DNA from: Erodium maritimum
Lineage: Eukaryota > Streptophyta > Magnoliopsida > Geraniales > Geraniaceae
Assembly (NCBI GenBank): GCA_963921825.1
Contig: OY997589.1
Span: 6,634,001 to 6,698,000, forward strand
Length of the DNA: 64,000 nt
Direction of reading: 5' to 3'
Below the pieces are notes generated by a model. That model ran no database searches, had not been told where the DNA came from, and worked only from the letters and a program-made list of their open reading frames with translations. The position numbers and the translations under genes were made by a program. Position 1 is the stretch's first letter. Each line of letters begins with the position of its first letter. Of this stretch, positions 1 through 64,000 are shown piece by piece.

Positions 1-3000
1 TTTGTCCCAATATGCTTTATGGATATTTGTCCATTTTGCACTCTTTCTTTCACAACAAGGAACTTTATGTCTATATGTTTAGACTTTGATGAGCTCCTGT
101 TGTTGTTGGAATATAAAACTGTTGAGTTATTGTCACAAAATAACTTTAGTGGTCTTTCAACATTTTCCAAAATGCGCAGCCCAGTGACAAAGTTTCGCAG
201 CCATATTCCATGGTTCGGTGCCTCATAGCATGCTACAAATTCTGCTGCCATAGTTGAAGAAGCTACTAGTGTTTGTTTAACACTTTTCCAAGATATAACT
301 CCTCCAGCCAATAAGTAAATGTAACCTGATGTAGACTTTCTGCTATCTTGGCACCCAGCGAAATCAGAATCTGAGTACCCAATAACCTCCAAGCGATCTG
401 ATTTCCTGTAAGTGAGCATGTAATGCTTTGTCCTCTTTAGATATCTCATAACCATCTTGGCTGCTATCCAATGGTCCATACCAGGGTTGCTTAGATATCT
501 GCCTAACATCCCAACAATATACGCTATATCTGGACGCGTACATACTTGAGCATACATTAGACTCCCAACAGCTGATGCATAGGGAATCTCTTGCATTTTC
601 TGAATCTCAAGGTTATCTTCAGGACATTGTGCAAGACTGAATTTGTCTCCTTTAGCCACAGGGGTGTCACCTGGTTTACAACCTTCCATGCCAAACCTTT
701 TAAGTACCTTATCGATGTAGCTCTTTTGTGATAATCCAAGAACACCTCGAGATCGATCTCGGTGTATCTGGATTCCTAAAACAAAAGAGGCGTCCCCAAG
801 ATCTTTCATCTCAAAATGAGCAGATAGAAATTTCTTGGTTTCGTGCAACAGCCCTACATCATTAGTGGCAAGTAATATGTCATCGACATACAAAACCAGG
901 AACATATACTTACTCCCACTGAACTTGTGATACACACAATCATCAACCATATTTGTCTCAAAACCGAACGAGACAATCACTTTGTGAAATTTGTGGTACC
1001 ATTGACGGGAAGCTTGCTTGAGTCCATAGATGGATTTCTTTAATTTACAAACCATTTTCTTTGGGTCACCGAACTCAAAGTTTTCTGGTTGTACCATATA
1101 CATTGTTTCTTCAATGTCACCATTGAGAAACGCAGTCTTAACATCCATCTGATGCAACTCAAGATCAAGATGAGCGACAAGTGCCATAATTATCTTGAAA
1201 GAGTCTTTCAATGAAACCGGAGAGAAAGTCTCTGTAAAGTCAATGTCTTCCTTTTGAGTATAGCCTTTAGCTACAAGACGTGCCTTATACTTTTCCACAT
1301 TACCATTTCCATCCCTCTTGGTTTTAAAAATCCATTTACAACCAATTGGTTTCGTACCTTCAGGTAATGGGACAAGTTCCCAAACTTTATTGTCTTGCAT
1401 AGACTTATACTCTTCTTGCATGGCATCAATCCATTTTAGAGAGTTTGAACTTTTCATGGCTTGAGGAAATTTGATTGGATCATCTTCCCTTATTCCATCC
1501 TCGTGTTCTTGGAGAAATATGACATAATCATCTGGAATAGCACTTCTCCTCTCTCTTATGGATTTCCTTAGTGGCACATGTTGTTGAGGTAGTTGAATTT
1601 GTTCTTCTGGAACAACTATTTCAGCCTGAATGGGGAGTTGTTCAACATTGTCTTGTTGAGGCTCCGGATTCACTTCTTGATCAATGACAGGTGTATGATC
1701 CTGAACATTATCAAAAGTGATAATAGGAATTGAGTTTGACGTCATTTCCTCCTCAAAGACAATGTTTCTAGCCTTATTTCTCCCCCCAAATTCAACATCC
1801 TCAAAAAATGCTGCAGTTCCCGCCTCAAAAATGTTTTTATTTATGGGTTCATAAAACTTATAGCCTCTAGAGTGCTAAGAATAACCAATAAAGTAGCTGC
1901 TTACAGTTTTGGAGTCCAATTTCTTTTCTTGAGGTCTGCAAGGCATTGCCTCAGCTGGACATCCCCATATATGAAAATGCTTTAAACTAGGCTTTCGGCC
2001 TGTCCAAAGCTCATAAGGTGTTTTTGCAACTGCTTTACTTGGTACTCTGTTTAGAATATAAGCTGCTGTCTTTAGAGCTTCTCCCCAGAGAGACTCGGGT
2101 AAGGTAGAATGAGAAATCATACTTCTTACCATGTCCTTAAGAGTCCTATTTCTTCTTTCATCTACACCATTCATGCTAGGTGATCTAGGTATGGTGTATT
2201 GCGGAACGATACCACATTCCTCTAGGAATTTAGCAAATGGACCTGGACGTTGTTCTCCTGAGCCATCATACCTACCGTAGTATTCACCACCACGATCAGA
2301 TCTGACTTTCTCAATTCTTGTGTTGAGTTGATTCTCAACCTCAGCCTTATAAGCTTTGAACACGTTCAAAGACTGAGATTTTTCATGAATGAGATATAGG
2401 TACCCAAAACGTGAGTAATCGTCTATGAATGTTATGAAATATTGTTGACCATTCCAAGAAGCTGTAGGGAATGGCCCACAAATATCTGTATGAATAAATT
2501 CTAAGACGCCTGATGATCTGTTGGCACCTAATCTCTTTGTTTTGGTCTGTTTTCCCTTGATGCAATCAACACAAACTTCAAAATCTGTGAAGTCGAGTGA
2601 TTCCAGAATTCCATCAGACACAAGGCGTTCCATTCTACCTTTTGAGATATGACCCAAGCGCTTATGCCATAATGATGATGAAATTTCCTTATTTAATTTG
2701 CGTTTAGTGCCCCGTGATTCCACATGCAAGGCTTCATTGTAAGATGCAATCGTTTCCAACAAGTAAAGGTTGTCATAAGCACTTAAATAACCGGTCCCGA
2801 TAACATTTGAATCAAAAGACACACTTAACTTACTGTTTCCAAATGAACAAAAATATCTCAACTTGTCCATTAAAGGAACAGAAACCAAATTCCGTCTGAA
2901 AGATGGTACCACAAAAGTGTCTTTTAAATACAAATAGAAACCGGTTGTTAACAACAACCTAAAATGTCCAATTGCTTCCACCTCCACCGATTTTCCATCG

Positions 3001-4311
3001 CCCACATAGATGTTTCTTTCAACATCACTTGGCTTTCGGTGACTCAGACAACCTTGCATAGAAACACTTATGTGGGCAGTGGCAGCCGAATCCATCCACC
3101 AAGTGTTTCTAGGCACTGAAGCTAAATTAACCTCAGAACAGACCAAAGAAAAATTCTCACTTTTCTTTGCAGCTTGAAACTGAACTTTATCGTTTTCAGC
3201 AAAACGATGTCCGATTTCGTCAAGGAAATCTTTGGCCTTAATAATCCTTTCAGATTCCTTTCCTCTAAAGTCTTCTGGAATAGTGTGTTTCATTATCATA
3301 AGACACATGCGGTTTGAACGTTCCCACCTCTCAAAATACCCTTTCTCATCATATGAGCCTTTTGCAGTGAGAAGTGTGGATTGTTCTCCCCTTAACGCAA
3401 GGTCCATATTCATGAAACCTAGCACTATTTCTAAATGTCATTTCCAATCCTTAAAATTTGTACCATTAAACATAGGTATAGAATCGATGTTAGCAGATAT
3501 CGACACAGCAGAATAATTGGCTGAAATGTAACAAAGCAAGTAAAACAAGCTCACGTCAAAATCCTGAGTAAACAATAAATTCAAAATAATGGTGACTCCC
3601 ATCTCAAGATACCAAACGCTACATTAATGTTTAGCCTTTGGGCATATCAACATTAACAGCAAGCGGTACTCTTGGTGCAGTAATCAAACATTGACAATAA
3701 AAATATGTCAAACAAACACCTATCTTTGGACCAGTGCATTGCTCACATCAAATTGCTCACATTGAACACCTTATAATTGTCACACATTTATCACCGTAGT
3801 TGTCATATGAAATTCGGCCAAATATTAACTCGCCTTTGGGTCCGTTAATAAACGCATGAATAACAAAGACAGAAAAAATCATCTTGATATTTTAAATAAA
3901 CTAATCTACACAAAAGAGGTCACTTTGGCGACATTATGTTTCAACTAATTTACAAAATACCAGACATCATCAAAATATGAATTAAATCGTTTTCCGTATG
4001 ATCATAATCATTTCTTAGCAAGAATTTGTATGATTATGCTGGGAGCAATCTAATATACACGGTAACATATATTAAATAAATATATGCATATACATGACAA
4101 TTGATAAAGGAATAACAATACCAAGCCGAACCAAACAAGCAATTCCATCATGTTTGATATCATTATCATATATGTAAACTTTGACAATCACATTAGTGTA
4201 TCATACATGTATCCAATATTACTCCTACACCCACAGAAACTCATATTCATCCAAACAAACATATATATATATATAAACAGTCAACCATAAATCACTGAAA
4301 TTATATACATA

Positions 4312-18904: not shown

Positions 18905-21900
18905 TCAATCTACTTTGTGAAAGAGGACTTTGGCAGCATGAATGCTGATCATATTGTCGGAGAAGAAGGCTGTGTAGTAGAAACTCTTTGCCACTGCAAG
19001 AACTATGTTCTTGATTTGGGGATCAACGTGGTTCATGGAGTTGTCCAAAACTGATTCTACTACTTGTTCCATCTTTCTCTCTATCTCTTCTGTTGTCATG
19101 CAACTCGCCATATAATCATTGTCTTCATTAACATCATCTTCTTGCTCGTCATTGCATTTGCATACCTTGTCCTTGTGGTAGAGACGAAGCTGATCACAGA
19201 CCGAGTTTGTGAGGGCAATGAGGGACTTATAGTGAGGATGAGAGATCTCTTGTAACAGTGATGAGTGTCCAGATGTATAAATTATGGTATGAACTAATAG
19301 GTCAGCTTCCCCTTCATATTTGTCTCCTTTCCATTTTGCCAACCAATCTCTCCACTGTTGTTCATTGGTATGCCAAAAATGAGAGCATTAGAAATACTAT
19401 CAGAAAACAACGATTTTCGTTTTAAATCCAATGCTTACAGCATCAAGTAAACGTTGGCCCATGTCTTGTTCGGTCGATATATGGTTTATGGTTGTAACCA
19501 ATATGCTCACCAATCTCTTATTTCCTACCTCTGTCGTATCCCAATACTCCCTGCAAAAACGATATTAATTTTTGAATTATAATAAATTAAGTAATCATAA
19601 ATTGATTGCAGATTGTTACTGTTATCTTTATTTTGTTACAAAACTTACTACAAAATAAGTATAGAGTTTAAAGAACACGATATAATTTTGTCATCATCCC
19701 TCATAATTACCTTGTGTTCGCACGAACATTATTCACATGTTTGTCAGCATGGTTGAGGAACTCACTGACGAAAGAGTTCCTCTGATCAGAGTACGACCAT
19801 ATGGCCTCCAACAAGACTGCAGTCTTGGCCCATGCAAGTCTCTCTTTCGACCTTTCTGGCTCGAAAATATTGGCTGTGGCAACAAAATAGGCTCGGAGAA
19901 GTGTCCTCTTGCTAACCCTAAAATCTCCGAGCTTAAATTCTCTGTACCACCTATTTGACATTGTTCATATATTGTGTCACATATCAATATTAACGTATCA
20001 TGTACGATGAATGTTGATGAAAGAGAATTGGGCACATATATATTTGTCTACTTACTCCTGGACAGTGTCCCATTCACGCCTATGCATTGCTTGGCAATAA
20101 TTGTAGTCTTGTTTTGCGACCTCCAAGTACGTGTTATTGTTAACGTAGTGCATCCTGAATACATTCAAACAGATTATTTATTCATGTCGACTTGCATAAT
20201 TAAATTAACGTGCACGGGAATTAAACCTGTAAAGGGTCTTGCCAATCCACACATCGTCGTCTCCACCATAATGTTCTAGATAGAATCTTGTTTCTATTCT
20301 AGGTAGACTTGCATACCACGGAACATGTAATGCATATCCCACCTGTAATATTATTACACAATTCAAGGTCATCTCATGTATGGAGATTTAATTTCACTAC
20401 CACTTTCAAATGGCTTGATGTATTATATATACCTCGCCGGGCAAGTTTTTAGCTACGATCCATTTGTCAAATAAGTCATTAGAAACCTGTTTTTCTCTTA
20501 GGGATGTGTATGCAAAGTGTTTCACTTCTTTAAGGATGTCTTCTCCGGAAAATGCCACCTGAGAACTCCGGTAGATATTAAACATTCCGGTCACTCCCAA
20601 ACTTGACATCCCACCGTAATCCAAACAGAATTCTCTGTCTTTCTTGAAGTTGCGGAACACATCTATTAACAAAAAGGAGACAAGGATTACGTAAAGTTGG
20701 TGTAATTTTATGGATTTACATAGGATATTAAGGTCATTTTGTTGAAAAGGTTAACACAAATGGGTAGAAAATTAGCGTCAAAAAGTGTACAGATCGGAGT
20801 AGTTATTCCACATAATATCTAGGTAGATATGATTAGATCTTCCTTTAGCACACAAACTGAAATTGATATGAATAGAAAATGTTATAAAGACCGTTTCTAC
20901 GTTGAATTGAACGAAACAGGATGAGATACAGTTTCGATGACGACCGAGACACTGATCCTATATCTAGGTATCCGATGTGACCCAAGGAGATACGAAGGGG
21001 TGGTTTCCTATTCTGGTTGTATGAAGTAAATGAATCTGTTGTACTTTATCCATCTCGACTTGATTGGTACTGTTGTGTCGTAGAAGTCGGTGAAGGAATA
21101 TATCGGGGAAAGAAGGAGACTGGAAGTCAAAAAACAGCTGACTCACAAAGGCCCGGGATGTGCCTCCTCAGAAGTACCCCGAGATGCCCTGGGGTAATCA
21201 TGGCGACCCGCGAGGCAGCTCTACGTGCCTCACTTCTTCCTTATTAGGGCCGTCTTCCTCAGTCGTGTGTGTGAATTCTAGACTGTCTTGGGTGGGAATA
21301 GCAGACACATCCGTCTTCAGGGAGGAGACATACTAGCTGGTTCCTCCATCCTTTGCGATGGGAGTCTAGATTCCTCCGCCCGAGGAGGAAAGGGTAGCAA
21401 TGAGAGTCCTCCCGTCGTGCCCTAAGTGTCACCAAAAAAAATTTCAGTCCAACGGTCCCTAGTCCTCCGATAGGTGTGAAATTTGTATCTCACATCTTTC
21501 ATGTGATTCATGTATTGGCGGCTGTCGAGGGATACCCGAAGTCATAGCATCATGGTCGTTGCCCAGATGCGCAACCGGAGTCATGTTCATCAGTCCATCA
21601 TCAATCGAGATCCCCGATCTGTCCTTGTCTGTGGTTGGAAGTCGGATATTGCATCCCAAGGTCTGATAGAATGCATAGGTGCTCGCCAGCGTCGTGGGAA
21701 AGGTTCGGTGCCGAAGGGCCTGTAGTAGGGGAGGGGCGGGATTACTGTTAACGGTTGTGCCCTAATGGGATCCCGAGATCCCATTTCAAGTGCCGCCTGT
21801 TTGGTTCTCTATTGGAGGAAGTGGTCTCCATCTTCCTTCGTATCGATCCAACGGCGTCGTGGTTGGACTCGAGGCTCTGGTCGGAGATGGTGTCTGTAGG

Positions 21901-24900
21901 ATGTATTGATGCTTCTCTGACGGTCCATCGGAGGACGGGGTCCCCATCTTCATCTGTGTCAATCCGATGACGTCGTGCTTGGGTTCGAGGCCCTGGTTAG
22001 AGATGGCGGTCTCCAGGGTGCAGGTTCGCCATTTCATGAGGCAGTCGTCGATAACCAGCGGCGAGGGAAGCAGTTTCCTCCCGTGGGGTGATCCACGGGT
22101 CCCATTGGATTGGTCGAGCCGTAGCCGAGCGACGAATCGGTCGGCTGGAGATTGTGGAAGGTGTCGGCGATTGCGGTGAACGAACAACCATGGTGATCGG
22201 CAAAGATAAGGATGACAGTGACGACAAAAGAGGATGGAAATTATTTTTTGGGAAAGAAGTTTTGAAAGAGGAGAGAAACTTTACGTTCTGAAAAACTTTA
22301 CAGAAATTTTCTAGTTTCCCTTGAGACACGATTAGACTTTTGTTTACATTGAGTAAAAATAAAAATATATAAAAAAATTAAAAATAGAAGGTATCAAAAA
22401 ATAAGAATTCTGAAGGTATATGTGAAGTACCGGCGGAGACATGATGACCGTGTAATCTTAGAAGCCTAAACGCCATGGCAGTGTCATCAATATCTTCAAC
22501 GCTTGTATTTCTTGCCCAGCAAATCCCTTTCTTTGTCCAATATCTGAAATTATTTTAAATGTGCGAACAAGGTTATTATTATCTGAAACTAAACTTACAC
22601 TTGCAATAATAAATTATATTGAAGGGGTTGTTAATTAGTGTACCTCTTCACGTAATTGATACATTCACAAATTTGTAGCTCGAAGTACCTCGAAATGCCT
22701 AGGCGTTGCAGACGATCAACAGCCCATATACGCTCGAACAAGTCCACAGGATAAACGTTCGGTACTAAAATAACAAAGAACATGTTACATGTTACATGAT
22801 TTAATTACAATCAGGTCTAGTGTCGGAAATACAATACCTCCACCATTAAATCTCTGCACGAGTTTGGTCAAGTATGTCAAGCAATTCTCGTCTTTGGTGT
22901 GGATGAACGCATAAGCAGTGGAGGATGGAGAGAACAAGAACGAGCCTTCTTCGCATTGTAACTTCACGATTCGTTCCCAATCCAGTCCTTCCATTCCCTC
23001 CAAGCTATAAAGCAATGTTGTAGCTACTTCGTGCATCATTTCCTTCGGTATTCTATACGTGTTAATGTACTTACGTTCTTAGCTGCGTATGAGATTACTG
23101 GTTCCAATCCTTATATTACTATTATGATCGATATCCTCATTCTTACCTTGAGAGTTTCAAATCTCTCTTGGCATAGATTTGTTGCAAAACGGGAGAATCA
23201 CTAGGGATTTGGATGCCTAAGCTTTTGGCCATCTCGAGAAGGGGAGGAAAAACAACTTCAAATCCAATTAACATGTGCTCGCTCTTCTCGTACTCAAGTT
23301 TGCATATATTTTGTGTGATGTATGAGATTCCTGTAATATATATTATGGTTAATATCATAAAACACTATACAAGTATGTACGTTTTTCAAATAATACACTA
23401 AATTACGATTTTTTTTCATGTGGCACACCTATGTACCAACAAATTATCAAAGTTTGTTGATACATAGGTGTGCCACATGAAAAAATCGTTGTTACATAAG
23501 TGTGTCACATAAAAAAATCATAACTAAAGGTTATTTAATTGGTGATCAAACCTTTTTGGCATTTTTGCGAGTAAACGTTCCAAAATTTGAGTGCAACTAT
23601 ACACGCGAGAGTGTTGATTAGTCTATCGTGTGCGAGGAACATGTGGTCGTCGCCCCAAGAACCATCGGGGAATTGGTTATCAACAATCCATTGGAGACAA
23701 GATGGGAATTGAGGAACGTTATTCCCATGAACATCTTCGATCATAGCAACCCAAGCAGTGTCATATGCTGAAACACTTATCTCTCCATCTTCCATCGACT
23801 CCAACATTGACCTGATAACCTCGACACCTTCCTTAATCTTGTTAGTTACTGTACCCTAGTATTGCACAAAACAATATATAAAATTGATAAACAACTATAT
23901 ATGTGTATGTTAAGCATGAATTCGTATAAAAAATATATATGGTTATAAAAATTACATTCAATTAACCATTTGTTTTAAACAAAAGTTACATACTTGATAT
24001 AAAAACAAGGGTTAATTTCACCTCAGTAACCTAAATCTTTTATATTTCATTTAGAGTACACTAATTCTTTTTTGTGTCACCTCAGTACCATAAATTTTCA
24101 TTAATTCATTTATAGTACCCTAAAATAAATTTTGTCACCTCCGTACCCTAAATTTTCATTAATTTCATTTTGGTACTCACTGTTAGCTTTTCCCTAAATT
24201 TAGTTGTTAGTGAGGAGTATTATGGTCATTTTACATGTTTTGGATGAAAAATCACATGAAAAGTTAATGATGGATACTAAAATGAAATTAATGAAAATTT
24301 ATGGTATTGAGGTGACACAAAAAAAATCGATACTCTAAATGAATTAATGAAAATTTATGGTACTAAGGTGACACAAAAATACTTCATCCAGATATTCCCT
24401 TTCAATCTCATCCTCCACGATCAAGGGCACGTTGCTGTGGACCACTTCTGCAAATCCCAATTGATAGATAATGATAATTTAAATGTTAACTTTACAAGTT
24501 TAAAATATAGTTCTCATGGAATATTTCAATAGGAATAGTAAATACCATGTTTGTTGGCTTTGGATATAGCATTGCAGGTAAGTCCAAAGTCACAACCGAG
24601 AGGTTTGTCCTTATTTGCCCCGGAGAGCAACGCGGAATCTGCGTAGGAATCAAAATGTAATTATAACTTTGTTAATTTGGATTTGATTTTAAAAATATGT
24701 TAGAAATTCTTTTAAATCACAACTTGAAGTTATAAATTATTTCATTAAAGGTGAACCAAAGTGTCGTATCATGGTGTTAGACGCCAACCTCTCGATGACC
24801 CTCTGGTAGAAAATTTGGAAATGGATGACGGCTTAGTAGTTAGGGAATGTCTTTGTCAGACTATTATCGAAGCTCCAAAAGGGAATGGTGTATGTGGGGC

Positions 24901-27016
24901 CGGTGGAGTCAGAGGCGGGAACGTGATTGGCGCAAGGCCATCTGCTCAGGGATGTTGTTGGACCATAGTCAGACAAGTATCTCGGAAGTGGGGTTACACT
25001 TACCGACTCAAAAACGATCTTTTGAACCATTGGTTCGGGTTCTCTTTCGGGTGGGTCCAGAAGCCCAAGAAGACGGGACGGGTCCTCACAAATTAGGTGA
25101 GGTCTGCGATGCAGTCTCGTCATACCGTATAAGTCAGGGTAGGAGGTATAGTATGGACTGATGGATGATTTTCCTATACCAAACCCAATCGGGTATCTCT
25201 GGCTAGCCTCCTCAAGGTGGGGGCGCTCAGCTTGCCCCAATAACACAAGACAAACCCCAATTTCGCCAGAGCACCCCTCTTCGGTTGTTACAAGTCCCCA
25301 ACGAAGGACCAAGATGTTATTTAAACAGCCTGGTACTACTGGTTTATTAGTCTCTTGTATTTACTTAAGTGTTAAATTTGTCTCTCTTTCGTCTGCGATG
25401 AAAAACAAATTCGATTACTCTGTCACGAGTGTTAATACATTGGACTCTTATAGGTTCTCGACTATATTCTAGATCTTGAGGAATATACATATTTTTATGT
25501 ACTTAGTGATATGTACCCGGAGAAAACAAAGTCAAAAGAGAGAAGCTCTCGCCTTACTCTAGACTTTTCTCAGTCGTATCCCTTACAGCTCTACTCCTTT
25601 CTTTTGTCGTTGTCGGTGACTTTCATGGTTTGGCTGTGTGAGTCACCGGTGGTTCTTCCCTCTCCCCCTCTCCCATTCTGTTTTCAATTTCTTCCTTTCT
25701 GTTTCCTTCTTCCTTCTGGCAAAGCTACTCCCCTCGGACGCATCGACGGTGACTCCTTTCATCTTTATCAGTGGCGACCTTTTCTGGTTCCGAGTAGGAT
25801 GCTTTTCTCCACATTCCACGATGTGGATTGAAGTGGAATTGGTCCAGCATACCTCACATTTCCCGCCCAGATCTTCTCCAGGGTTACAGATGTTCGTCGT
25901 AGTGTGATCTCCTTTCTAGATCCGCTTTTTGTATTCAACTGTTTCTCGATTTGTTTGGGTTACCGGGCCTCGTTGGAGCGTGATGGCCTCCGACAAGGGG
26001 TTAGGCAAGTATGGCCTTGGTTTTGAAGAATCAGTGTTGTAGGTGAGGACTTCTTCGGGTCGTTGCGTCGGATACTTAGATCTGGTTCCATGGAAGCTAC
26101 TCCTGGCTTCTCTTGGTTCGTTGCCTTCTCAGGTATGAATCCTATCCCTATTACTCCTATTTTCCTCTATGTTTTACAGATGTTCGGATTGACAGTTTTT
26201 TGTGCTGGTCGGCGGTTTTGTTCGTCTGATTTTGGGTGTTTTAGGGTTAGGGGCACTTTTCGGTAATTTATTTTTGCTCGGTATCACTTTCGATACCGGT
26301 CCTCCTCCCTTAGGTCACCTCTCAGCATTTGTTGGGGGTGGGTTACCGATTCGATTGCGGAGGACCAACCGTTTTTTATTTGTCCCGTCTGATTGGTAGT
26401 GTTCCTAAGCAGGGTGTTAGAGTGAGAGTGGTCGGAGGGCGTTATGTTGGTGTTGTCTGTAACATCCCGCCGTGCCAGAACCGGGCCACACGCGCGGCGA
26501 TGTTAGGTTTGCAGCCCAATACACCCCAATCCCTCTGGTGTATTGTCCACAGACAAATACCAACCTAGGTTGTTGGTGAGACTTTAACCCAAGAGCTCAT
26601 CCTTTATAGTATTTCCTTGAGTGATGCTATCACCAATTGAGCTGCAGCTCAATTTGTGAGAAAAAAAAAAGTCAAATCACGTGAGAAAAAGAATCCAGTG
26701 AGAACAGTCCATTGAAACAAGTAATGTAAGTAAACTTCTGGAAGTGCCCATATTTGTAATATTAACTCACTCGACAAACGTTGTGAAGAATAAAAATCTC
26801 CAACATAAGGTTACTGATTCTGACCTTCACATTAGCGGTTATATATTACTGATACAAAACCTAAACAATGAACAACAAATGATGGGGATTAAACTAACCG
26901 GGAGGTTTGAGGTGAAGGAGGGACGACCGTGTCGGAGCAGGCAGTAGAGTCCACCGCCGGTGCAGAGGTAGTGGTAGTGAGCTGCAGCAGAGGACATGAC
27001 GGACTGGATACATCAT
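18905..27016 (-). CDS. CPS: Class II diterpene cyclase (copalyl diphosphate synthase family)
   Basis: Cyclises geranylgeranyl diphosphate to a bicyclic diphosphate in plastids. Fourteen exons (minus strand order): 26899-27016, 24546-24638, 24383-24447, 23552-23855, 23147-23330, 22838-23052, 22644-22764, 22431-22543, 20433-20662, 20227-20342, 20056-20154, 19711-19950, 19439-19550, 18905-19354. They sum to 2460 nt, 819 aa, in frame throughout, as expected for the family. The first 39 residues are Arg/Ser/Leu-rich, like a transit peptide. Visible motifs: SAYDTAW, DGSWG, the class II acid motif DIDD (residues 384-387), and the family's C-terminal alpha domain without a class I DDXXD. Tyr270 and Arg338 replace the histidines of gibberellin-type ent-CPS, so a specialised product is likely. 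The start at 27016 is chosen because only this frame joins exon 2. The exact product cannot be read from sequence. Confidence 0.93.
20930..22330 (-). mobile_element. LINE-like insertion in cyclase intron 8
   Basis: A GC-rich block inside the large intron 20663-22430, unlike the AT-rich intron around it. On the minus strand it opens with a T/C-rich leader (about 22210-22330) followed by broken Arg/Pro/Ser-rich coding sequence starting near 22193, resembling LINE ORF1 starts elsewhere in the window. No reverse transcriptase was seen and boundaries were not fixed by a target duplication. Confidence 0.4.
23405..23489. repeat. Near-perfect hairpin in cyclase intron 4
   Basis: Two arms of about 38 nt (23405-23443 and 23453-23489) are reverse complements around a 9-nt loop; the core word is ATGTGGCACACCTATGTA. 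A third, weaker copy of the arm follows at about 23490-23525. Probably a small foldback element; in the transcript it would form a strong stem. Confidence 0.8.
24009..24382. mobile_element. MULE-type MITE in cyclase intron 3
   Basis: Begins GGGTTAATTTCACCTCAGTA, like the MULE at 7305, and contains the same GTTAGTGAGGAGTATTATGG subterminal word. The right half is an inverted counterpart (GGTACTAAGGTGACAC near 24360), but the outermost right end does not mirror the left end, so it is incomplete. Its right edge abuts exon 3 at 24383. Confidence 0.65.
24760..26660. repeat. Repeat-derived filler in cyclase intron 1
   Basis: The 2.26-kb first intron holds GC-richer blocks unlike the flanking intron. 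24770-25330 has LTR-like character, 25505-26450 resembles plant LINE leader sequence, and 26457-26660 starts TGTAACATCCCG like a gypsy LTR. No open coding family was recognised and no matched termini were found, so the classification is tentative. Confidence 0.35.
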
Positions 27017-29605: not shown

Positions 29606-32600
29606 TCACTCCATCTGGGCCGGCCCATCCTCCACCCTGACATCACCTTCAACACTACCCATCATCACAGCAGTAAGCATCAGCTTCCCAGCGTCAGGGA
29701 AATCTTTGTGCTGCATCAATATCGCCTCAACCGAACCTATCTCCTTCAAAGCCAACGATGCCTCCATATTTTCTTGCCTCAGTGGCAGAACCTCGTCGAA
29801 CCCTTCCTCATAAGTCTCTCCTAACGGCCCATAGCACCGCCCCGAAGCCTGGAACAGCACCGTGCTGCTCAAGACCTGCATGGTCTCCTCGTCCCCCCAC
29901 CCTTCGGCCGTGTAGGCTTGGTGCAGTTCGCTCCAGTCATCCCGGTCAGCGGCGTTCTTCCAGCACTCTTCTAGAAGATTCTTGTGGCTCTTCCGGAAGG
30001 ATGAGCTGGTCCACGAAAACACATCGAAGGCCCGTAATGAGAGCTCTGGAGTGCCGCCTTGTAAGCACAGTTTGATGAGGTCTTCGGGACGGAGGAGGCT
30101 ATGTGCTATGTTTTTCTTTTCTTCGATGTTGTCGGGAAGGAGATGTACTATCTCTTCCTGAAAGTGGTTAAGCATAAGTCTGTCATGAGTCTCATGAGTA
30201 CAGTGGAGAGGGTACAATGAGAACTATTGTATATATATTTTTGAACATAGTGCACCTGTAATTTCAGAAGCTTCAGATCGGCTTCAATACGCTTCATCTT
30301 TGTCAAAGAATTGGTATCTGTGCCTGCTGGTGAAGTAAAATGTAGAATTGAGGATTAAAGCATAGTAACAAAATATTTCGTTCAAGCATTTAGTCATTGA
30401 CAATGAAGCACTTGTTCCAATATACCAAATCCTTAACTAAGAAAGATAGAATTAAATTGATTTTTATATCCCCATACTCAGTTATTTGACGGGAAATAAC
30501 TACAAAATTTATCATGAACACATTCATCCTTTTTCTGTTCTTTACCAGACAAATGCCACATTAGGCATGCTTGCGGAAACAGTTAACTTTGCTCTAACAT
30601 CTATGAGAATTAATAATAAAAGGGATGATAGCAAAATAGGACTCTAAGGTATTCATTTTTTGCAATTTGTAGCCCTCTTCTTTGGTGATGGTACAATAGT
30701 GCCTTAGACTTGTATTTTGGTTGCACTTTGTATCAAGATGACAATTTTACTCTTAAAATTTAAATTTAAAAAATAATATTTAGTATACCAAAAATCCAAA
30801 ACTTCATATCCCTTGATTTTCTTCCTTTTTGTACCATACAAAGAGCAAGAAATTTAAAAGACGTGAAATTTTGGAAATTTTGCTTTTTACGTATAATTTT
30901 TAACTTAAATTTTCAATGGTAAAATCGTCAATTTGAAACAAATTTATACAAAGTGCAACCATAAAAACAATTTCATGGCACTTTTTTTTGCTACTATATA
31001 TCAAAGAAGTGGATTACAAGTTGCAAAAAGTGAATAGCTCGCATACTTTTCTGCAATTATCTCTTAGTGAAATCACATGCTCTTACCTAAATATTTGAGA
31101 ACCTGCCAATAATAAGAGCATGAACAACAGAAAGGACCTTGGTCAGGGAGTGGGAGTGCAGACATTGTGCTGACTGGACAAAAGTCAGGGAGTGGGAGTG
31201 CAGAAAAGTGGGTGTTTTGCAACAGAAAGGACCTTGAGGTCCTGGGAGTGCAGAACAGTGCTGACTGGATTATTATTTGATATTTTCCTGTTTTATTTAA
31301 TTCGTTATCAGAAACCGTTTAACCTAGTCATAATTTAAACAATTTTGGAAATAAATAATTAATGACAATCAATTATTAATAAATTCAACACGAATATAAA
31401 ATTTAATACAATAAATGAAGTGCAAAAAAGTAAAATAATAAAATAAGTGCAAAAAATTAATGCAATAAATTAAGTGAAAATTGTAACACAATGTATTAAT
31501 ATAATAAAATAATTAAAAAAATGAATACAATGCACGAGACCCAGCGTCGCCCGACATATTTCACGACAATAATTGAAACGAGAGAGAAGAATTTGGGAAG
31601 GAGAGAGTGAAGTTGGATAGTTGAAGTAGAAAATGGTGTGAAAAAAATGAGAGGGGAAGGGTAATTATAGGGGTTTTTGTGCTGATTTTTGAATTAAAAA
31701 AAAAAAAAAAACTAGCCGTTCGGGACACGTGGCAGCGCCACACGCTGCCAGCGCAGCAGAAGGCGCGCCGGCGCGTCCAGCGCACCCGGCCAGCAAGAGG
31801 GGAACGGGGAGCGGTGCAAGGGGAGCAGGAGCGCGAAAATGGGGAGCGGGGCCGAGCTTTTTGGCCTCCACAGCAGAACGGCCCGCGCGCCCGGCCAGCG
31901 AACGGCACGGCGCGGGGAGCGGGACCGTTCTGTTGTACATGCTCTAAAGCACCCCTCCAGATTTATTTAGTTGCAACCTAACTTAGTTCCCACAATCTTC
32001 ACACACATTACAGACATTTCCGTATTCTCTGTTAGATCAATATCCACTTTAGATGTATGCTTCATAATGTCATGTGCAACTTACAACAGCTCAAATATAG
32101 TTTGAACCATAAAAAACAGCAGGTAATGCAAGAACTTTGCAGGGTATCCAGGGCCCACCGATTAAAATTTAGAACGAATGTTGCAAGGGTGGGAAGAGGA
32201 GATAAACAAAACCAACATATAAATTCAGAAAAAATAAAGACAAAGAATAAACATGTACCTGCCATTGAAGCTATTTTTGAGAGATTAAGAAGACGTTTTC
32301 TGTCTGCCAATGATGGCTCCACATTTGTATACTCAAGGTCCATACTTTCTTCAGCAGGTGAAATGGAGTTCTCATACTGAGAAAGAGCTAACACATGAAG
32401 AGTTTCTGAAGCTGAGGAAAATTGGTTGAGGAAAACTTCATGAAGCCACTGTAACTCCTGGTGCTGCTTTAGAAATATAGATAGCTCATCCTGGAATTCT
32501 TCCCCAAGCCTTAAAAGCTCGGAAATTTTTTTTATCTCATACAGTTGTTCAAAAACAAAATAACTGAAGCCTCCTCTGGGTCCCACAGTCTCGCGCTGCA

Positions 32601-35600
32601 AGACATAACAATCAAAGACTCTTCAGGATAACCATGACCATCAAATATGGTAGAAAATGCCACAACAGAAAAACTTCTTCATCCCTTCAAGATAAGATTA
32701 GCACTTATGCGTAAGTACAAGCAAACCAAAAATACCATGTTCAATTGGGTACCCCAAGCTCTCCATGGTCTTAAACCACTTCAAGAGTAGACTTGGAAAG
32801 GGTGCCGCTGTTTTTAGCCCAAAATTTCTTTAGAAATACAAAACGCGATCATGATATACAGATTAACTGCCAAAATTCAGTGTCCACCAAATACACAGTT
32901 CACCACGAGCTCACATAAGATAATACATTATTACATGAGGGTAAAATATTGCTAGAGCTATTACACTTTAGTTGCTGATAATATGAATACGACCACCTGT
33001 TAAAATGTTGCATAGTGGTACATTACAGCATTACTTAGGCTAGGTGATGAAAACCAAAATATATTTTCATTTCACAAGCAACTGTAGTCATATTTGACAC
33101 TAAATTCAGAGATGGTGAACAGCTCAAACATGAGTCAATTATCCAATAGTGACAGTACGTCATGACTGGCAAAAGAAAGAGCATCAAGGACACAAACAAA
33201 AGCAAAGAACGCATACCAAAAGATGAATAATATAACATGAAAATAATCCGGGGAATACTCTTATCCATACCATAATATTTCTTAGAAGTACTGGATCATT
33301 GAGGTCACAACATAACTTCCACATAGTTTTGTAGCCTTCATGACGCTTCGCTATAGAGATCAAATGTGAAGAAAACTTCCTAAGAGCCTCATCCATTGCC
33401 TCTTCAGCTCCTTCACTCTGCCCCTATAAAAAGTTGGCATTTCAAGAATACATGTAAACCCAGCAGGGCCATACCCAGGACAAAGACATCATGTGAGGAA
33501 TAATAGACTGACCTGGAATTCAGCCTCTGCAAAGCCTTTAGCTTGTTCATACAAGGAGTCAAGAAGCGCATCCCTCCTATTCCAATACTCATCAAGTAAA
33601 CCTTTGGGTTTCTCTCCCCGCTCTACTTTTGCTGTAATAGCGCCGGCATAGGCCTCCAATATTACTTCAGCCAGTACTTCTAGATGGCGATATATATCAG
33701 ATCTTGCAGACATGTTAAATCCAGATGTTTCATTTAAAAGCTGAAGCATGAAAGAAGCGGCATTCCACAATCCATTTCGTACAACAGGTTCACAATACCA
33801 AGGCGTTAAGCCCTCAGGTGGTGGGTACCACATCTGATGCTCAGTTCTGAACTGTATTGCTGTTCGAAGTATAGTAACACATGCATTTGAAAGTTCACAA
33901 GCTCTCTGAATTTGTACCGAAGATGGCATCTCTGTGCTGATTAAATATTCTAGCTGTTTGTCCAAGCAGTGAAATACTTCCTCAAGGTCAGAAACTTTAC
34001 TATAGAACACTTCAGCATTATCTCTGTCCATGAGAAGTACAGTATTCCTGCGGGCCCTCTCACCAACTAACTGAATAAGATCCCAGAGAGCCCCTGAAGC
34101 TTCACTCTCTGGACTAGAGTACTGTGATCGGTTTTGGCTGATTGCATTTTGTAGCTCCCTCAGTTGAATCATTGCGATAAGCTTTTCACCATGTCCCAAT
34201 ATAATTTGTAAAGCATATCCTGCCAACAGAAAATTTCATATTTTAGACAGGAAAATGTCTACCTCCCTCATCATCATGCTATAATTTTTATAATATAATA
34301 AGAATAATCTGATTTAGCTGTTCAGTGGAATACATATAATATTTGAGGATGATAGAGCATTAACCAGTAAACCTTATTCGGCAAGAAAACAGTGAATTTA
34401 TGTGAGCTGGCAAAATGTAATAACCTAAAAATTAACCTCATATAAAATCATCTGAGAGCCAATGATTGGGTCTTAAATATCCTAATAGGAGACTTTAAAA
34501 GGCAGCAAATGACAGGGCCCTCCCATGTCAAATAAAGAACATAGGATTGTGGGATACGATAAAATCACATAGCAGGCACTACTAAAAATGAAGTAACAGG
34601 CCTGAAAGATTACATATGCATGGCGAAAGCAAAACAACGATCATATAATCAAAATCATTAAAATAGACAATGAATCTTACTCTGCCTAGAACAAAGCTCT
34701 TCATGGCACTTGGATAAAGCAAGAAACTGCAGAAGTTTTTGATGCTTCTGCTGCTTATCAATGAGTTGGTTGGATACAACTGCCATAGCCACAATTTCAG
34801 CACCTCTCGTGGTTGTCCAGTGTTTAGCTAATGAGTCAACAATGGATTTACTAGTGCGAGCAAAGATGTTTGTTTCTCCATCCCTTTCAAATGCCCCAGA
34901 ATGTCGTAACTTTTCAAGTGCCCCATCTACCTGCCCGGATAATAGAAAGTCATGGAAAATATGTGCGAGTATAGCGTCAGACTCTTCATCCTGGGCAGTT
35001 CGACGTGCAATCCCAGATATAGCTGCTCTTTGTTTATCTCCAGCATCCCATGCTTCAGAACTAGCCCTTCTGGGTGCAATGTTACCTGTGAATGTGAGGT
35101 TCCTTTGCTCTTCTTGAGAAGATCTTTCGTTGGAGCTCCCCTTACGTGATAAGCTACGCTCAGGTGGCTCAACTCCTCCAATTACAACAGCTTTTTCTGG
35201 TATTGCCCATATTCCTGCTTTCTCAGTAAGTACAACCCACGCACCTTCACCATCATCTGTAGAAGGAAGAACTGAAGCATCTAGAACTTTTCCAGCATCA
35301 TACGGTAGGTCAAATTGATAAAGCCGCGTAGAGTTTCTATAGTAATGGGATACTGTGGCTGTCCCGTCACCAGATAGTATAATTGCTGAACCTGAAGGCT
35401 TGCCTCCTATCCTCATTCTCATGGAAAACAAGAAGTCCTCATCTTCTACTCTTGCTTTTGGAATTATCACTTGGATGGGAGCCTTTTTCTCCAAAACCCT
35501 CTCACTTCCAGAGATGTTTACCCCAGATTTATATTGCATTGTCAGAAGAGAATACTGTGTGTAGCTTGAACTGCTCACCCGGTCCTTGCAGAAGGTTGCA

Positions 35601-37477
35601 ACAAGAATGCTGATTTCATTTCCACGATCATCTACCTGTACATCAAGAGGCCAGATTTGTTTCTGACCAGCCAGATCTTTCTTAATAGCCACATCTGCAT
35701 CAGTACCAATAAATTCACAAGACCAAAGCTTTGAAACATTTAAATCAGGAGATAGTTTGATACTAAAACATTGTATCTCATGATCTGTCAGTAGCAAGAA
35801 CTGTCTATTAAATTCCTCCAATGGATGAAACGGAAAACGCCAAATCATGGATCTAGGATACCCTTTACTCCCTATATGTTGACCACTATCAACACCCTGA
35901 GAAGTTAAACTCAATATGTTGCGGTATACTTTGCTGCGTTGAATACCAGTGGGGCTGCAGTAGAACTGCCAAAGTTCACCACTGGAACTACATGCAAGGG
36001 CAACACACACATGCCGGTTGTTAGGGATTGCAGAAGCAACCAAAGAGTTGACACAACTTGATTCAACCAAGTTACTTCCAAGCCTGCTACGTTGCCACTG
36101 CCTATTTGGGGTTGTCTTCCCATCCACTGGTGAAGAAGTGTCATAAGATTCATCAGACGGTGCTAAGCTAGTGATAGGAGCATTTCCATCATCAGAATAA
36201 ATGTCCGGCCAGTATATAACAGCTCGAGTGTGCCGATTATGTATCACAACACCAACAGAGCTGCTTTGCTGTACACCTTTGTTTGTTCTAGCACGCATGC
36301 CATCCCAGTGAACAACACAGAGCAACCAACTGTTCCGTGGGTGAGAATTTTTCCCAATATGCACATCATTTGAAACATCCGATGGAAGTTGAAGAACAAC
36401 ACATTTTCTGGAAGAAGTAGATGATAAGAGACTCCAAATAAACAGTTTGCTTCCACAGATAATCCAAGAAAGGGATGTTTCCTTGTCCATTCCACCAGAT
36501 ATGCACGTGTCCCCTGCAAGAAGAAAAAAAATCACATACCACCTCATTTAAATAAAATCCAGACTAAATTTAAAGAACCTTTGAACTATGAAATATTCAA
36601 GCCAACTGTACATACCAGACACGCGCTTCTGCAGAAAGATGGCTTCTTCATCACGTACAACTTGAGGGAACTCTCCAACATATACAGGCTTTGTTGGATC
36701 TATTTCATCCCCTTTCTCGTTTTTGTGCGCGGCTGGAATTCTAGGAAATGTGACGATATTTGAGCAAATGGTTCAGCGAACGTTAACCAGGCAAACAAAA
36801 TTACTAACTACAGTAAATTATATCAATATCAATTCAATTCCCATAGATCCAAAACCTAAGGTGAATCTGTATATGGATACAAATGTACTCTATAATTTGC
36901 ATTATACTAAAGAGGGAACAGACTCCTGAAAGCTTTCCAAAAAGCTATGGATACATAAACGAGTAAGAACTACGCCTCTAGGTTTAACTTTTGATCACAA
37001 ACACAAAAAGAGCACAATACACTGCTCAAAACTTCAATGTCATAAGAACAGTGAACTCGAAATCAAAGAGACCAGGCATATATTATTCTCACCCAATGGA
37101 TCCACACTCATCCAACAGTATACAATTTCCATATAGTTCAGTTGTTCACAACATTCAGAAAAACAAGTTACAGTGATACCGAAGTGATTAACATTGGTAA
37201 TTGCAAAAATATCAGGAAAAAAATGCAGATGCTAGAATTCGCTAGATCGATACTGAGCATAACTTCGATACACACATAGATACCTGGCGAGGACGGATAA
37301 GCGAGGGCCCCAGGGAGCGGGGGTGCCGGTGCTGGGGCGATTTGGCACCGAATCTTCGTGAAGAGATCTACGGTTGTCGGCGAGAGGAGTGACCGGAGAA
37401 TCATCCGGCGCCGAGTTCCTTGGAGTCCGCTCCTTGCGGGAGCTCAAATTCGGTCTCTTCGTTCCCGGAGAGAACAT
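29606..37477 (-). CDS. NUP133: Nucleoporin NUP133
   Basis: Scaffold subunit of the nuclear pore Y-complex (Nup107-160). Eight exons (minus strand order): 37284-37477, 36616-36740, 34681-36513, 33513-34219, 33271-33423, 32259-32595, 30256-30323, 29606-30157. They sum to 3969 nt, 1322 aa, close to the Arabidopsis protein of about 1315 aa, and every junction keeps frame with GT-AG introns. The N-terminal part (about residues 75-490) is the nucleoporin beta-propeller; the rest is the alpha-helical stack. Recognisable stretches include VRDEEAIFLQKRVSG, HEVFLNQFSSASETLHVLAL and ELSLRAFDVFSWTSSSFRKS. The gene looks intact; intron 6 carries two MITEs. Confidence 0.96.
30651..31035. mobile_element. 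Inverted-repeat MITE in NUP133 intron 6
   Basis: The left arm begins ATTCATTTTTTGCAATTTGTAG-like sequence and the right end, reversed, reads ATTCACTTTTTGCAACTTG. Both arms share TGGTTGCACTTTGTAT further in, giving arms of over 100 bp. Superfamily not determined. Confidence 0.7.
31116..31944. mobile_element. PIF/Harbinger-type MITE in NUP133 intron 6
   Basis: 829 bp with inverted termini GAGCATGAACAACAG (left) and GAGCATGTACAACAG (right, reversed), flanked by TAA at 31113-31115 and 31945-31947. Inside, the words GGGAGTGGGAGTGCAG and ACAGAAAGGACCTTG are repeated near the left end, and the last 230 bp are strikingly GC-rich. Non-coding. Confidence 0.75.
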
Positions 37478-47764: not shown

Positions 47765-49252
47765 TCACTTCCATGCACAAGAAGCAACCAAATCTCTCTT
47801 CATCCAACCAAGATACAAAGCTCCATCCCTCTCTTCAAGCCTATACCCCTCACAATACTTCTCCAGCAGTTTCTTAATAGTACCGTTCACCAACGAGCTC
47901 AAAGGGTACGGAACAAAACCCGCCATTCTGAACCTCAGCCTCCACTTCCCAAGAAGCTCGTGCCTCTCGATCCTCTCACCTCCTTCACACGCTATAATGT
48001 TCACAACATCCCGAGCCAGGCAGTGCTGCTCAACGTTGATCCGATCCTTATGTTCCCTAGATAGAGTCACGTCGATGGACTCGAACATCGCTCTGTAGTA
48101 GCTAAACGTCTCCACAAACCGCGGGAAGAACGCTGCGGTATTAGTGTTTGATTCTTGCTCAACGAGAGTTACTACTTTCGGGGACAAGCTCTTCACTAAC
48201 CTCAAGAGTCTGTCCCTGTGATTCTCTGTGCTGACGCTCTCATCGGGCATGTGGTGCAGCACGAACGCGAAGTTCACAGCCAGGGCTTCCCCTGCTCGGA
48301 TGCAGAGGTTTTGTAGCTGAATTTCACAACCAGACATGGTTGCAGCGTGGAACTCGAATGGCACCTTGAACAGCTTGGCCAGCTTTGACAACCTCTTGCC
48401 TACAATATCTAGTCCTCCTCCATCATCAATGGCAGTGATACGAATGTGAGGTGGGCCGCCGGGCCTGGCTGCGAAGGCCTGGATGAGAGTGATCCATTGA
48501 CTACCTAGAGCAATGTGGAAATCAATGATGTGAACTCTGTCTTCGTCCTTCATTGCTTCTGCGATCGCGCCATTTGCAGACATGTATCCGAATTTGAAGT
48601 ATGGGCAAACCTCGTGGAGGGTGTGCATGTAGGCGAGGAGATGAGCACTTGACGGTTCTTTAGCTTTGTAGATGGAGGTTCCAGAGGAGGCCAGGCGTGC
48701 AACGAGGCCCTCTAACATGTAAGCTCCTAGCCTCTGGATTGGTTCACCGGAGACTGACACCATCTGGCGTAATTCACTCATCAACCATTGAGCCATCAAG
48801 TGTTGGTTGTTTGACACTGCTTTGGCACAGGCAAGGAGGACCTCTTTCAAGTCTCCTCTAGAGATGGCCTCAGTAGTTCTTCTCAAGTTATCGATCTTAG
48901 TTTGGTAACAGTCCTGGATATCAGAATCAGGTCCAAGCATTACAGTTTCGAGTTCCCTCAGCTTGCCCTTCAAGTCACTGACATCATCGGTTATGCAGGA
49001 ACCGGTGACTGAAGAGCCACGAGTGTTGTAAGCAGTGTAGGTGTGATTTGCTGAGGATGAGTCCAAGGTGCAATACCGTTTTTGAGGATTCTGAAACAGC
49101 AACTGGGCCTCGATGTCTTGATGGTACAATCTGTTGGACACGCTTGATGTTCTGTGTTGCTTTTGATTGGGCTGAGAGACAGAAAGTCTTCCCTTCCTGG
49201 ACTTTTGATGAGACAAAACAGCAGATTTGTGAGTTTGGTAGCATAACCACAA
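47765..49252 (-). CDS. PAT1: GRAS-family transcription regulator, PAT1 branch
   Basis: Nuclear/cytoplasmic regulator; Arabidopsis PAT1 acts in phytochrome A signalling, and relatives respond to chitin and gibberellin. The frame gives 495 aa (Arabidopsis 490). Conserved blocks in order: the PAT1-type N-terminal segment (KRYCTLDSSS, GSCITDDVSDLKGKLRELET), leucine heptad I (LKEVLLACAKAVSNNQHLMA), VHIID core (VHIIDFHIALGSQW), second heptad, PFYRE region (FAFVLHHMPDESVSTENHRD, VVTLVEQESNTNTAAFFPRF) and SAW ending SCAWK. The coding part has no intron. The start is uncertain: conserved sequence begins at about 49170 right after a possible 3' splice site, and no ATG lies there, so either the ATG at 49252 or one in an upstream exon is used. 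The VHIID core has H and AL where relatives have Q and GQ. Confidence 0.9.
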   Translation of the reverse strand: MWLCYQTHKSAVLSHQKSRKGRLSVSQPNQKQHRTSSVSNRLYHQDIEAQLLFQNPQKRYCTLDSSSANHTYTAYNTRGSSVTGSCITDDVSDLKGKLRELETVMLGPDSDIQDCYQTKIDNLRRTTEAISRGDLKEVLLACAKAVSNNQHLMAQWLMSELRQMVSVSGEPIQRLGAYMLEGLVARLASSGTSIYKAKEPSSAHLLAYMHTLHEVCPYFKFGYMSANGAIAEAMKDEDRVHIIDFHIALGSQWITLIQAFAARPGGPPHIRITAIDDGGGLDIVGKRLSKLAKLFKVPFEFHAATMSGCEIQLQNLCIRAGEALAVNFAFVLHHMPDESVSTENHRDRLLRLVKSLSPKVVTLVEQESNTNTAAFFPRFVETFSYYRAMFESIDVTLSREHKDRINVEQHCLARDVVNIIACEGGERIERHELLGKWRLRFRMAGFVPYPLSSLVNGTIKKLLEKYCEGYRLEERDGALYLGWMKRDLVASCAWK

Positions 49253-49654
49253 GTGTTCTTTTTAATAAGAAAAGGTTACTAATAAGAAAATGATTATCTA
49301 ATACTATACCTTTGTCATACTCCCAACCATCCTTCAATACACTATTTCCTGCAGGAGGCATAATTTGATACTCAGGAGACAACATATTAAGTTCAGATGC
49401 AAAAGACAGTATCTATATTGCCATCAACCATTGATGGGGAGACCGCTTATGTTCATCTTCTCCTTTTCTTTGGTAATCTAAATTGGAGATTTGTTTATAG
49501 ATTTCATATGTAAAACACAGATAATTCAGTTTTGGGGATAGTTGGTACAGTCTTGATATGCTCTTGTACATACTCAACCTCTAGCCTCTAGTCACATCTG
49601 GTTATGGGATGCCAAATCCAATGATCATATATACCATTTTTCTATCAGCAAGAA

Positions 49655-62832: not shown

Positions 62833-64000
62833 TTAGTCATCATCATCATTCTTGAGCTCTTCAGATAACTTCTGAATATGAACAGCTTCTGTATTTGGGG
62901 TTTGTTGCTCCTTTGATATACTTGCAGGGTCTGCACTGACATGCATAGCCATGTCAGCGCTAACATTATTGCCATCCTTTGATTTAGTTTTTGACTGATC
63001 ATCATGACCCTCCGTGTTGTTTTCTTCTGATTTGGCATCTGACTCGGTGCTCTTCACCTTATTAGATTGGCTTCCACTGATCAAACTAGATTGGACAGCC
63101 ATATTAGGGCTAACAGCATCACATACTTCAGATTTACTTCCCGACTCTCCATTTAGTTGCTCATCCGACTCACTCACAGGACCTGAATCTGTACGGACAA
63201 CTGTGTCAAGGCATACCGTATCATTGTCTCTTGCCTCAGTGCCAGTCTGGTTGTGTTTTCCATCTGATTTTTGAGTGCCCATACTTCCAGAAGGTGTGAT
63301 GCGGGGATCTGAACTTGTATTAGCAGCCATATCAAGACAGAAGGCATCATTTTCTCTAGATTTACTGCTGGTTTCTCCATCTGGGGAAATAGACTGGTTT
63401 TGTCCTACTGTGTTATGGGTGATAGTCCTTCCAGGAGGCATGTCATGGTCATGTTGTCCCTCATATGTGGCAATAACCATCTTTGGATCATGAGATGCCC
63501 TCTCCACGTGTTTCTTCACAGGGCATCCAGGACTTGAGCACCTGTAGTAACTCCTGCACAATGTAACACAGTATGAAGAGACGTCTTTAGCTAGTGCAAC
63601 TGCAGGATCAAGTACATATCCTCCACAGGTAGAAATTTGTTATAAATAACCAATAAAACCCAGTAGTATTAGCCATTAAGATAGTACACATACCTTGGAT
63701 TAGGATTCCCCTTCACTAGTTTCTGCCCATATTTGCGCCAGCGGTATCCATCATTCACAATGTCAACCTCACTCACAGTCTTAACAACAACAGGCTGCTT
63801 GGTGGTTGACTTATCCGCTGAACTTGCATCAAGATCGCCTTTCTTTCTGTTAAAAGTTTTTTTTCGAAAGTTAACCAAACATACAATAAATAGGCAACAT
63901 TATTAGGAAAAATCCAAAACAGCTAATTCATTGACATACTGCCGTTTTGGGCCTGGGACATCGTTATTATCAATCTCATCTCTCCTATTTGATTGAGAAA
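62833..64000 (-). CDS. WRKY1: Group I WRKY transcription factor, WRKY1 type, 3' part only
   Basis: DNA-binding regulator of W-box promoters. Visible exons (minus strand): from beyond 64000 to 63940, then 63694-63846, then 62833-63553. They join in frame; the intron at 63554-63693 splits the WRKY domain at the conserved Arg before SYYRC, the usual position for C-terminal WRKY domains of group I. The domain reads [20 protein letters not shown], then [20 protein letters not shown] with zinc ligands C-X4-C and HDHD. The PPGR-x-ITHN flank and [13 protein letters not shown] wording match WRKY1. A Ser/Asp/Glu-rich tail of about 190 residues follows, ending in four Asp. The N-terminal WRKY domain and start lie beyond the window. 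Confidence 0.9.

Follow-up and report, generated by a model that had tools for sequence, protein, structure and literature searches.

The ent-copalyl diphosphate synthase of Arabidopsis (AtCPS) belongs to the enzymes that open the pathway to the gibberellin hormones. Its reaction is believed to end when a water molecule bound by His263 and Asn322 removes the proton from C17 (PMC11795633). Substitution of the histidine by tyrosine or phenylalanine (H263Y or H263F) is reported to redirect the enzyme to ent-kolavenyl diphosphate (KPP) through four 1,2-shifts (PMC11795633; the product also in PMC9945934), and native kolavenyl synthases are described as carrying Phe or Tyr at this position (PMC11795633, PMC9945934). 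The KPP synthase TwTPS14 of Tripterygium wilfordii has Tyr, and the F255H variant of SdKPS, the kolavenyl synthase of Salvia divinorum, is reported to yield ent-CPP (PMC5441855); overall, two independent enzymes turned to ent-CPP when His was introduced here (PMC11795633, PMC5441855, PMC6779861). These enzymes are said to have independent origins, so a common phylogenetic grouping is not required (PMC5441855). An aromatic residue at the base position looks necessary but not sufficient, as many Phe/Tyr enzymes are described as not making KPP (PMC5441855). PcTPS1, with Phe at this position, makes a labdane according to PMC6349103, and in abietadiene synthase the tyrosine itself (PMC13142921), as part of a Tyr-His pair (PMC13142921, PMC9945934), is the likely base for formation of ordinary CPP.

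Other positions are also used to classify these enzymes. His331 of AtCPS has been linked to inhibition by substrate and magnesium, and Arg in its place to secondary metabolism and the absence of such inhibition (cited in PMC7952997, PMC12410513). The side chain at this position is described as lying outside the active site, and the FEHxW motif that contains it is tied to gibberellin CPS enzymes (PMC12410513). The same source gives the FxC(F/Y) motif, F412 apart, as more than 90% conserved among 153 verified plant enzymes (PMC12410513). In substance, the published accounts of the base position (PMC11795633, PMC9945934, PMC6779861, PMC5441855) agree with the literature invoked in an earlier, sequence-only reading of the locus described here.

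We analysed a window of 64,000 nt from Erodium maritimum (positions 6634001-6698000 of contig C2, within a 763 Mb assembly of 40 contigs). The window carries a CPS-like class II diterpene cyclase gene (gene A), whose 14 exons, complete from start to stop codon, encode a protein of 819 amino acids (Table 1). All 13 introns have an AG acceptor and a GT donor, and the stop codon ends at 18905. Protein A matches the terpene synthase N-terminal domain (PF01397, E 3.7e-42); the metal-binding domain PF03936 scores 22.7 bits, under the cut-off of 26.3 bits. The top PDB match is AtCPS (3pya, E 4e-246, full-length), a member of the same gene family with 54.7% identity. SAYDTAW at residue 121, DGSWGD at 156 and DIDD at 384-387 place the protein among class II diterpene cyclases (plant TPS-c), and no obvious class I DDxxD motif was seen when the last third of the translation was read by eye. 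Exon 1 encodes no Asp or Glu in its first 39 residues.

Table 1. Coordinates of gene A, its exons and its diagnostic codons, numbered from the first nucleotide of the window.
Feature	Position	Strand	Basis
Gene A, CPS-like class II diterpene cyclase	18905..27016	-	exon model, PF01397, match to AtCPS 3pya
Exon 1, transit-peptide-like	26899..27016	-	reading frame, phase and composition only
Exon 2	24546..24638	-	exon model; counterpart exon in copies B, D and E
Exon 3	24383..24447	-	exon model
Exon 4, SAYDTAW and DGSWGD	23552..23855	-	exon model
Exon 5	23147..23330	-	exon model
Exon 6, Tyr270 in TTLL-Y-SLEGM	22838..23052	-	exon model, alignment
Tyr270 codon TAT (AtCPS His263 position)	23007..23009	-	exon model; CAT in copies D and E
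Exon 7, VPNV (Asn329) and DLFE-R-IW (Arg338)	22644..22764	-	exon model, alignment
Asn329 codon AAC (AtCPS Asn322 position), PNV intact	22757..22759	-	exon model, codons
Arg338 codon CGT (AtCPS His331 position)	22730..22732	-	exon model; CAC in copies D and E
Exon 8, WAR motif and DIDD 384-387 (22483-22494)	22431..22543	-	exon model, alignment
Exon 9, FCLDYGG replacing FxCF loop, and DKW	20433..20662 (loop region noted as 20409-20750)	-	alignment, codons
Exon 10	20227..20342	-	exon model
Exon 11	20056..20154	-	exon model
Exon 12	19711..19950	-	exon model
Exon 13	19439..19550	-	exon model
Exon 14 with stop codon	18905..19354	-	exon model

Alignment to 3pya pairs Tyr270, Asn329, Arg338 and DIDD384-387 of protein A with His263, Asn322, His331 and DIDD377-380 of AtCPS, at a constant offset of +7. 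The rebuilt exon model and this alignment confirm the earlier assignment of Tyr270 and Arg338 to the diagnostic ent-CPS positions, which had been made for the interval 22644-23052, that is, exon 7 plus exon 6. Because both residues sit well within their exons, the choice of splice sites cannot affect them. Chance and a base-calling or splice artefact were rejected: of two further copies of the gene (below), B shares the Tyr, Asn and Arg, with a dN/dS of 0.26 relative to A, and C shares the Tyr. Protein A retains the equivalents of AtCPS I208, V323, I378, T381, A382, N425, W369 (in WAR), DKW464, W505 and Y511.

Gibberellin ent-CPS enzymes are described as having LHS with PNV as base motifs (PMC11795633, PMC9945934), His at the 331 position and the FxCF412 motif (PMC12410513). 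Protein A has LYS with PNV and Arg338, and in place of FxCF it has FCLDYGG, in which one codon is inserted and Tyr aligns with F412; at this loop A is one codon longer than AtCPS and copies C, D and E. Nine sequences were aligned (copies A to E, AtCPS, GrTPS2, OsCPS4 and the abietadiene synthase AgAS). Tyr occupies the 263 position in five of them (A, B, C, GrTPS2 and AgAS), of which A and B alone also have PNV.

At the base position, A has naturally the same substitution as the engineered AtCPS H263Y (PMC11795633); A departs from AtCPS further in its Arg and its longer loop. TwTPS14 shares the Tyr, a comparison made from its published description at that residue only (PMC5441855), and a literature search on residues of TwTPS14 and TwTPS21 and on tandem kolavenyl genes returned no additional residue data. 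SdKPS likewise has an aromatic residue at the base position and keeps the Asn of PNV (PMC5441855), but the residue is Phe rather than Tyr, the triplet is PNA rather than PNV and the magnesium position is occupied by His (PMC6349103); it is also listed with several more active-site changes that are absent from A (PMC6349103, Table 3). The labda-7,13E-dienyl diphosphate synthase of Grindelia (GrTPS2, 9b99; 50.0% identity) resembles A in its Tyr, but has PTF for PNV, Gln at the 331 position and a labdane product. The class II site of AgAS (3s9v) shares both LYS and the Arg with A, but it has PCH for PNV and belongs to a bifunctional enzyme.

A six-frame search of the genome with protein A gave at least 73 matches, from the 55 of 144 candidates that were scored. 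Four further CPS-like copies were modelled through exons of matching splice phase (exons 2-14 for B, D and E, and 4-14 for C), and none contains an internal stop across the modelled exons. Copy B is a tandem duplicate on the minus strand (C2:6624461-6628784), about 28 kb from A when measured from stop to stop and 89.4% identical to it. Copy C also lies on the minus strand (C2:6571595-6583001) and is 61.4% identical to A. Two loci about 1.07 Mb apart on opposite strands of contig C9 (C9:53019622-53023653 and C9:51946215-51950181) carry copies D and E; D is 63.6% and E 62.5% identical to A, and they are 93.5% identical to each other. Candidate first exons are present for both D and E; a search for exon 1 of copy B found no recognisable or homologous one. 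Copy E keeps a 387-base intron in its last exon, of which D has apparently lost all except 21 in-frame bases.

The copies differ at the positions of interest. Residues 263/322/331 and the acid motif are Y/N/R and DIDD in A and B, Y/H/G and DLDV in C, and H/N/H and DIDD in D and E, so that D and E have the full gibberellin signature of LHS, PNV and FEH. At the 263 position A, B and C use TAT, and D and E use CAT; at the 331 position A uses CGT, B uses CGC, C uses GGT, and D and E both use CAC. Relative to the codons of D and E, a single transition thus accounts for the Tyr of A and B and another for their Arg, and the Arg codon of A shows one silent difference besides. Copy B has FCSSYGG at the FxCF loop, which is the same kind of rebuilding as in A, together with TLS for the MFN triplet and Ala at the position of AtCPS I208. 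Over 775 codons, A and B differ with a dN of 0.056 and a dS of 0.212 (dN/dS 0.263), and from this ratio we conclude that purifying selection has maintained the array over a certain period; dN/dS between A and C is 0.22. In copy C, in which LYS and PHT replace LHS and PNV, the frame is open over exons 4-14; this copy may be on its way to decay, or it may encode a class II cyclase whose acid motif has changed.

In a tree whose references were AtCPS, GrTPS2, OsCPS4 and AgAS only, the five Erodium copies group together (support 86/95) and A, B and C group within them (89/94), neither value reaching the level starred by the tool; the pairs D+E and A+B each receive 100/100. Topology tests did not reject placement of A, B and C with GrTPS2 (p-AU 0.093), of D and E with AtCPS (p-AU 0.095), or of A, B, D and E without C (p-AU 0.0505), and dS is saturated between A and D (2.3) and between A and E (2.5). 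These sequences favour, but do not prove, that the array descends from the gibberellin CPS of this plant and not from a specialised clade of greater age. The same holds for an independent origin of the array's tyrosine, because the tree contains only four reference sequences.

Since the genome holds two other copies with LHS, PNV and FEH, gene A is unlikely to be the gibberellin enzyme, and the earlier proposal of a specialised role is well supported: D and E carry His/Asn/His, whereas A and B carry Tyr/Asn/Arg. We consider A very likely to be a class II diterpene cyclase of specialised metabolism, whose product is probably the precursor of specialised (defence-type) diterpenes, which may be clerodanes. 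That A might itself be the gibberellin ent-CPS of the plant, or a redundant one with tolerated substitutions, is highly improbable, and we reject it. In its favour are the 54.7% identity to AtCPS and the wheat enzyme LMA-1, which has Arg at the 331 position and yet appears to contribute to gibberellins (PMC7952997); however, A lacks both the LHS motif, which is reported to be conserved in CPSs of phytohormone biosynthesis (PMC11795633), and the histidine at the 331 position, and D and E have both. Arg338 had also been read as a sign of specialised metabolism. Published work does connect Arg with secondary metabolism and the lifting of inhibition (PMC7952997, PMC12410513), but the residue is weaker evidence than had been stated (PMC6349103, PMC7952997). 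As a marker of clerodane synthesis Arg338 was rejected, since the Salvia divinorum and Vitex kolavenyl synthases are described as retaining His (PMC6349103) and the wheat Arg enzyme appears to feed gibberellin synthesis. There is, in addition, a slight chance that A is a decaying or inactive duplicate within the tandem array. Copy B has neither a recognisable exon 1 nor the MFN triplet, copy C has DLDV instead of DIDD, the FCLDYGG loop is unusual, and exon 1 of A is recognised by frame and composition only; an open frame of 819 residues, 13 canonical introns, all of the catalytic motifs and the A-B dN/dS value argue against decay of A.

With respect to its product, gene A would have originated by duplication of a gibberellin-type ent-CPS. 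From the conservation of the motif, DIDD would protonate geranylgeranyl diphosphate, and descent suggests that the decalin cation would form in the ent series. Tyr270 would replace the His that helps to hold the base water, so that deprotonation at C17 would not take place; the cation would instead undergo 1,2-shifts and lose a proton at C3 to give ent-kolavenyl (clerodane-type) diphosphate as the main product, and Arg338 would remove the substrate and magnesium inhibition typical of gibberellin CPS enzymes. A clerodane-type synthase is the best reading because only A and B pair Tyr with PNV, and because of the literature on H263Y/F and on native kolavenyl synthases. The clerodane product suggested by the sequence-only reading is plausible in that Tyr with an intact PNV recalls AtCPS H263Y. 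Against it stand the many Phe/Tyr enzymes that make other products, among them GrTPS2 and PcTPS1, the likely role of the Tyr of abietadiene synthase as the base for CPP, and the fact that neither a P450 nor a kaurene-synthase gene was seen beside A. We put a clerodane-type precursor at an even chance and not above, chiefly because the FxCF loop is rebuilt; this loop, the tandem copies and the gibberellin-type copies had not figured in the earlier interpretation, which is partly supported overall. The fuller proposal, in which A is a working, probably plastidial, specialised cyclase and a duplicated CPS that acts as a natural H263Y analogue, seems to us just as evenly balanced. About one chance in three, in our estimate, attaches to a specialised cyclase whose product is an ent-labdane diphosphate without rearrangement. 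This could be ent-CPP, with the Tyr hydroxyl or a water acting as the alternative base; it could also be ent-8-hydroxy-CPP or one of the ent-labda-7/8,13-dienyl isomers. The labdane-making Tyr enzymes GrTPS2 and AgAS stand in the same alignment, alternative bases are reported to be able to yield ent-CPP (PMC11795633, PMC9945934), and the rebuilt loop touches an aromatic position of the active site (PMC12410513). Against this, GrTPS2, AgAS and copy C have lost PNV along with the His, whereas A keeps PNV, as does the KPP-making AtCPS H263Y.

Enzymes of the kind proposed for A are already known from other plants. If A makes kolavenyl diphosphate, it would be a natural counterpart of the laboratory mutation AtCPS H263Y, in which one altered base converts an enzyme of hormone synthesis into the first step towards clerodane defence compounds, and the unchanged hormone-type copies in the same genome would allow comparison. 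The rule that an aromatic residue with an intact PNV predicts a clerodane would then be directly testable in another plant, with the rebuilt FxCF loop showing if it withstands other changes in the active site. If A makes another product, an often-quoted residue-based prediction would be limited. More speculatively, copies C, B and A may be a series peculiar to this lineage, begun when a gibberellin CPS exchanged its His for Tyr and so opened a new branch of diterpene metabolism. With Tyr270, PNV and the longer loop, A and possibly also B would make a rearranged clerodane-type or an undescribed ent bicyclic diphosphate, and C would have moved to a Tyr-His pair and DLDV; we regard this scenario as doubtful, if possible.

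The surroundings of gene A were examined by a Pfam scan of 20 of the 186 ORFs of at least 75 amino acids in the window, and flanking ORFs of at least 130 amino acids were read by eye. Seven of the scanned ORFs matched, to pieces of a Nup133-type nucleoporin, GRAS and WRKY regulators, copia-type retrotransposon domains and DUF4283, and none of the 20 matched a P450 or a class I terpene synthase. None of the 124 matches listed in a genome search with PF00067 (92 of 947 candidates scored) falls within the part of contig C2 that carries the array, a search that a weakly scoring P450 could escape. A biosynthetic gene cluster around A is unsupported, as no P450 or kaurene-synthase gene was seen adjoining it. 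The nucleoporin pieces lie directly upstream of gene A (29609-36547, minus strand). Two adjoining ORFs at 3-3437 on the minus strand carry copia-type reverse transcriptase, integrase and gag-pre-integrase domains, and a GRAS-domain gene (47768-49261) and a WRKY-domain exon (62836-63639) are also on the minus strand of the window.

Elsewhere in the genome there are six kaurene-synthase-like loci, so that labdane-related metabolism looks expanded and class I partners exist. Four of them form a tandem group close to one end of contig C7 (184-220 kb) and have DEWFD or DEWLD in place of DDxxD; the others have DDWFD (C5:71.41 Mb) and DDFFD (C2:50.74 Mb).
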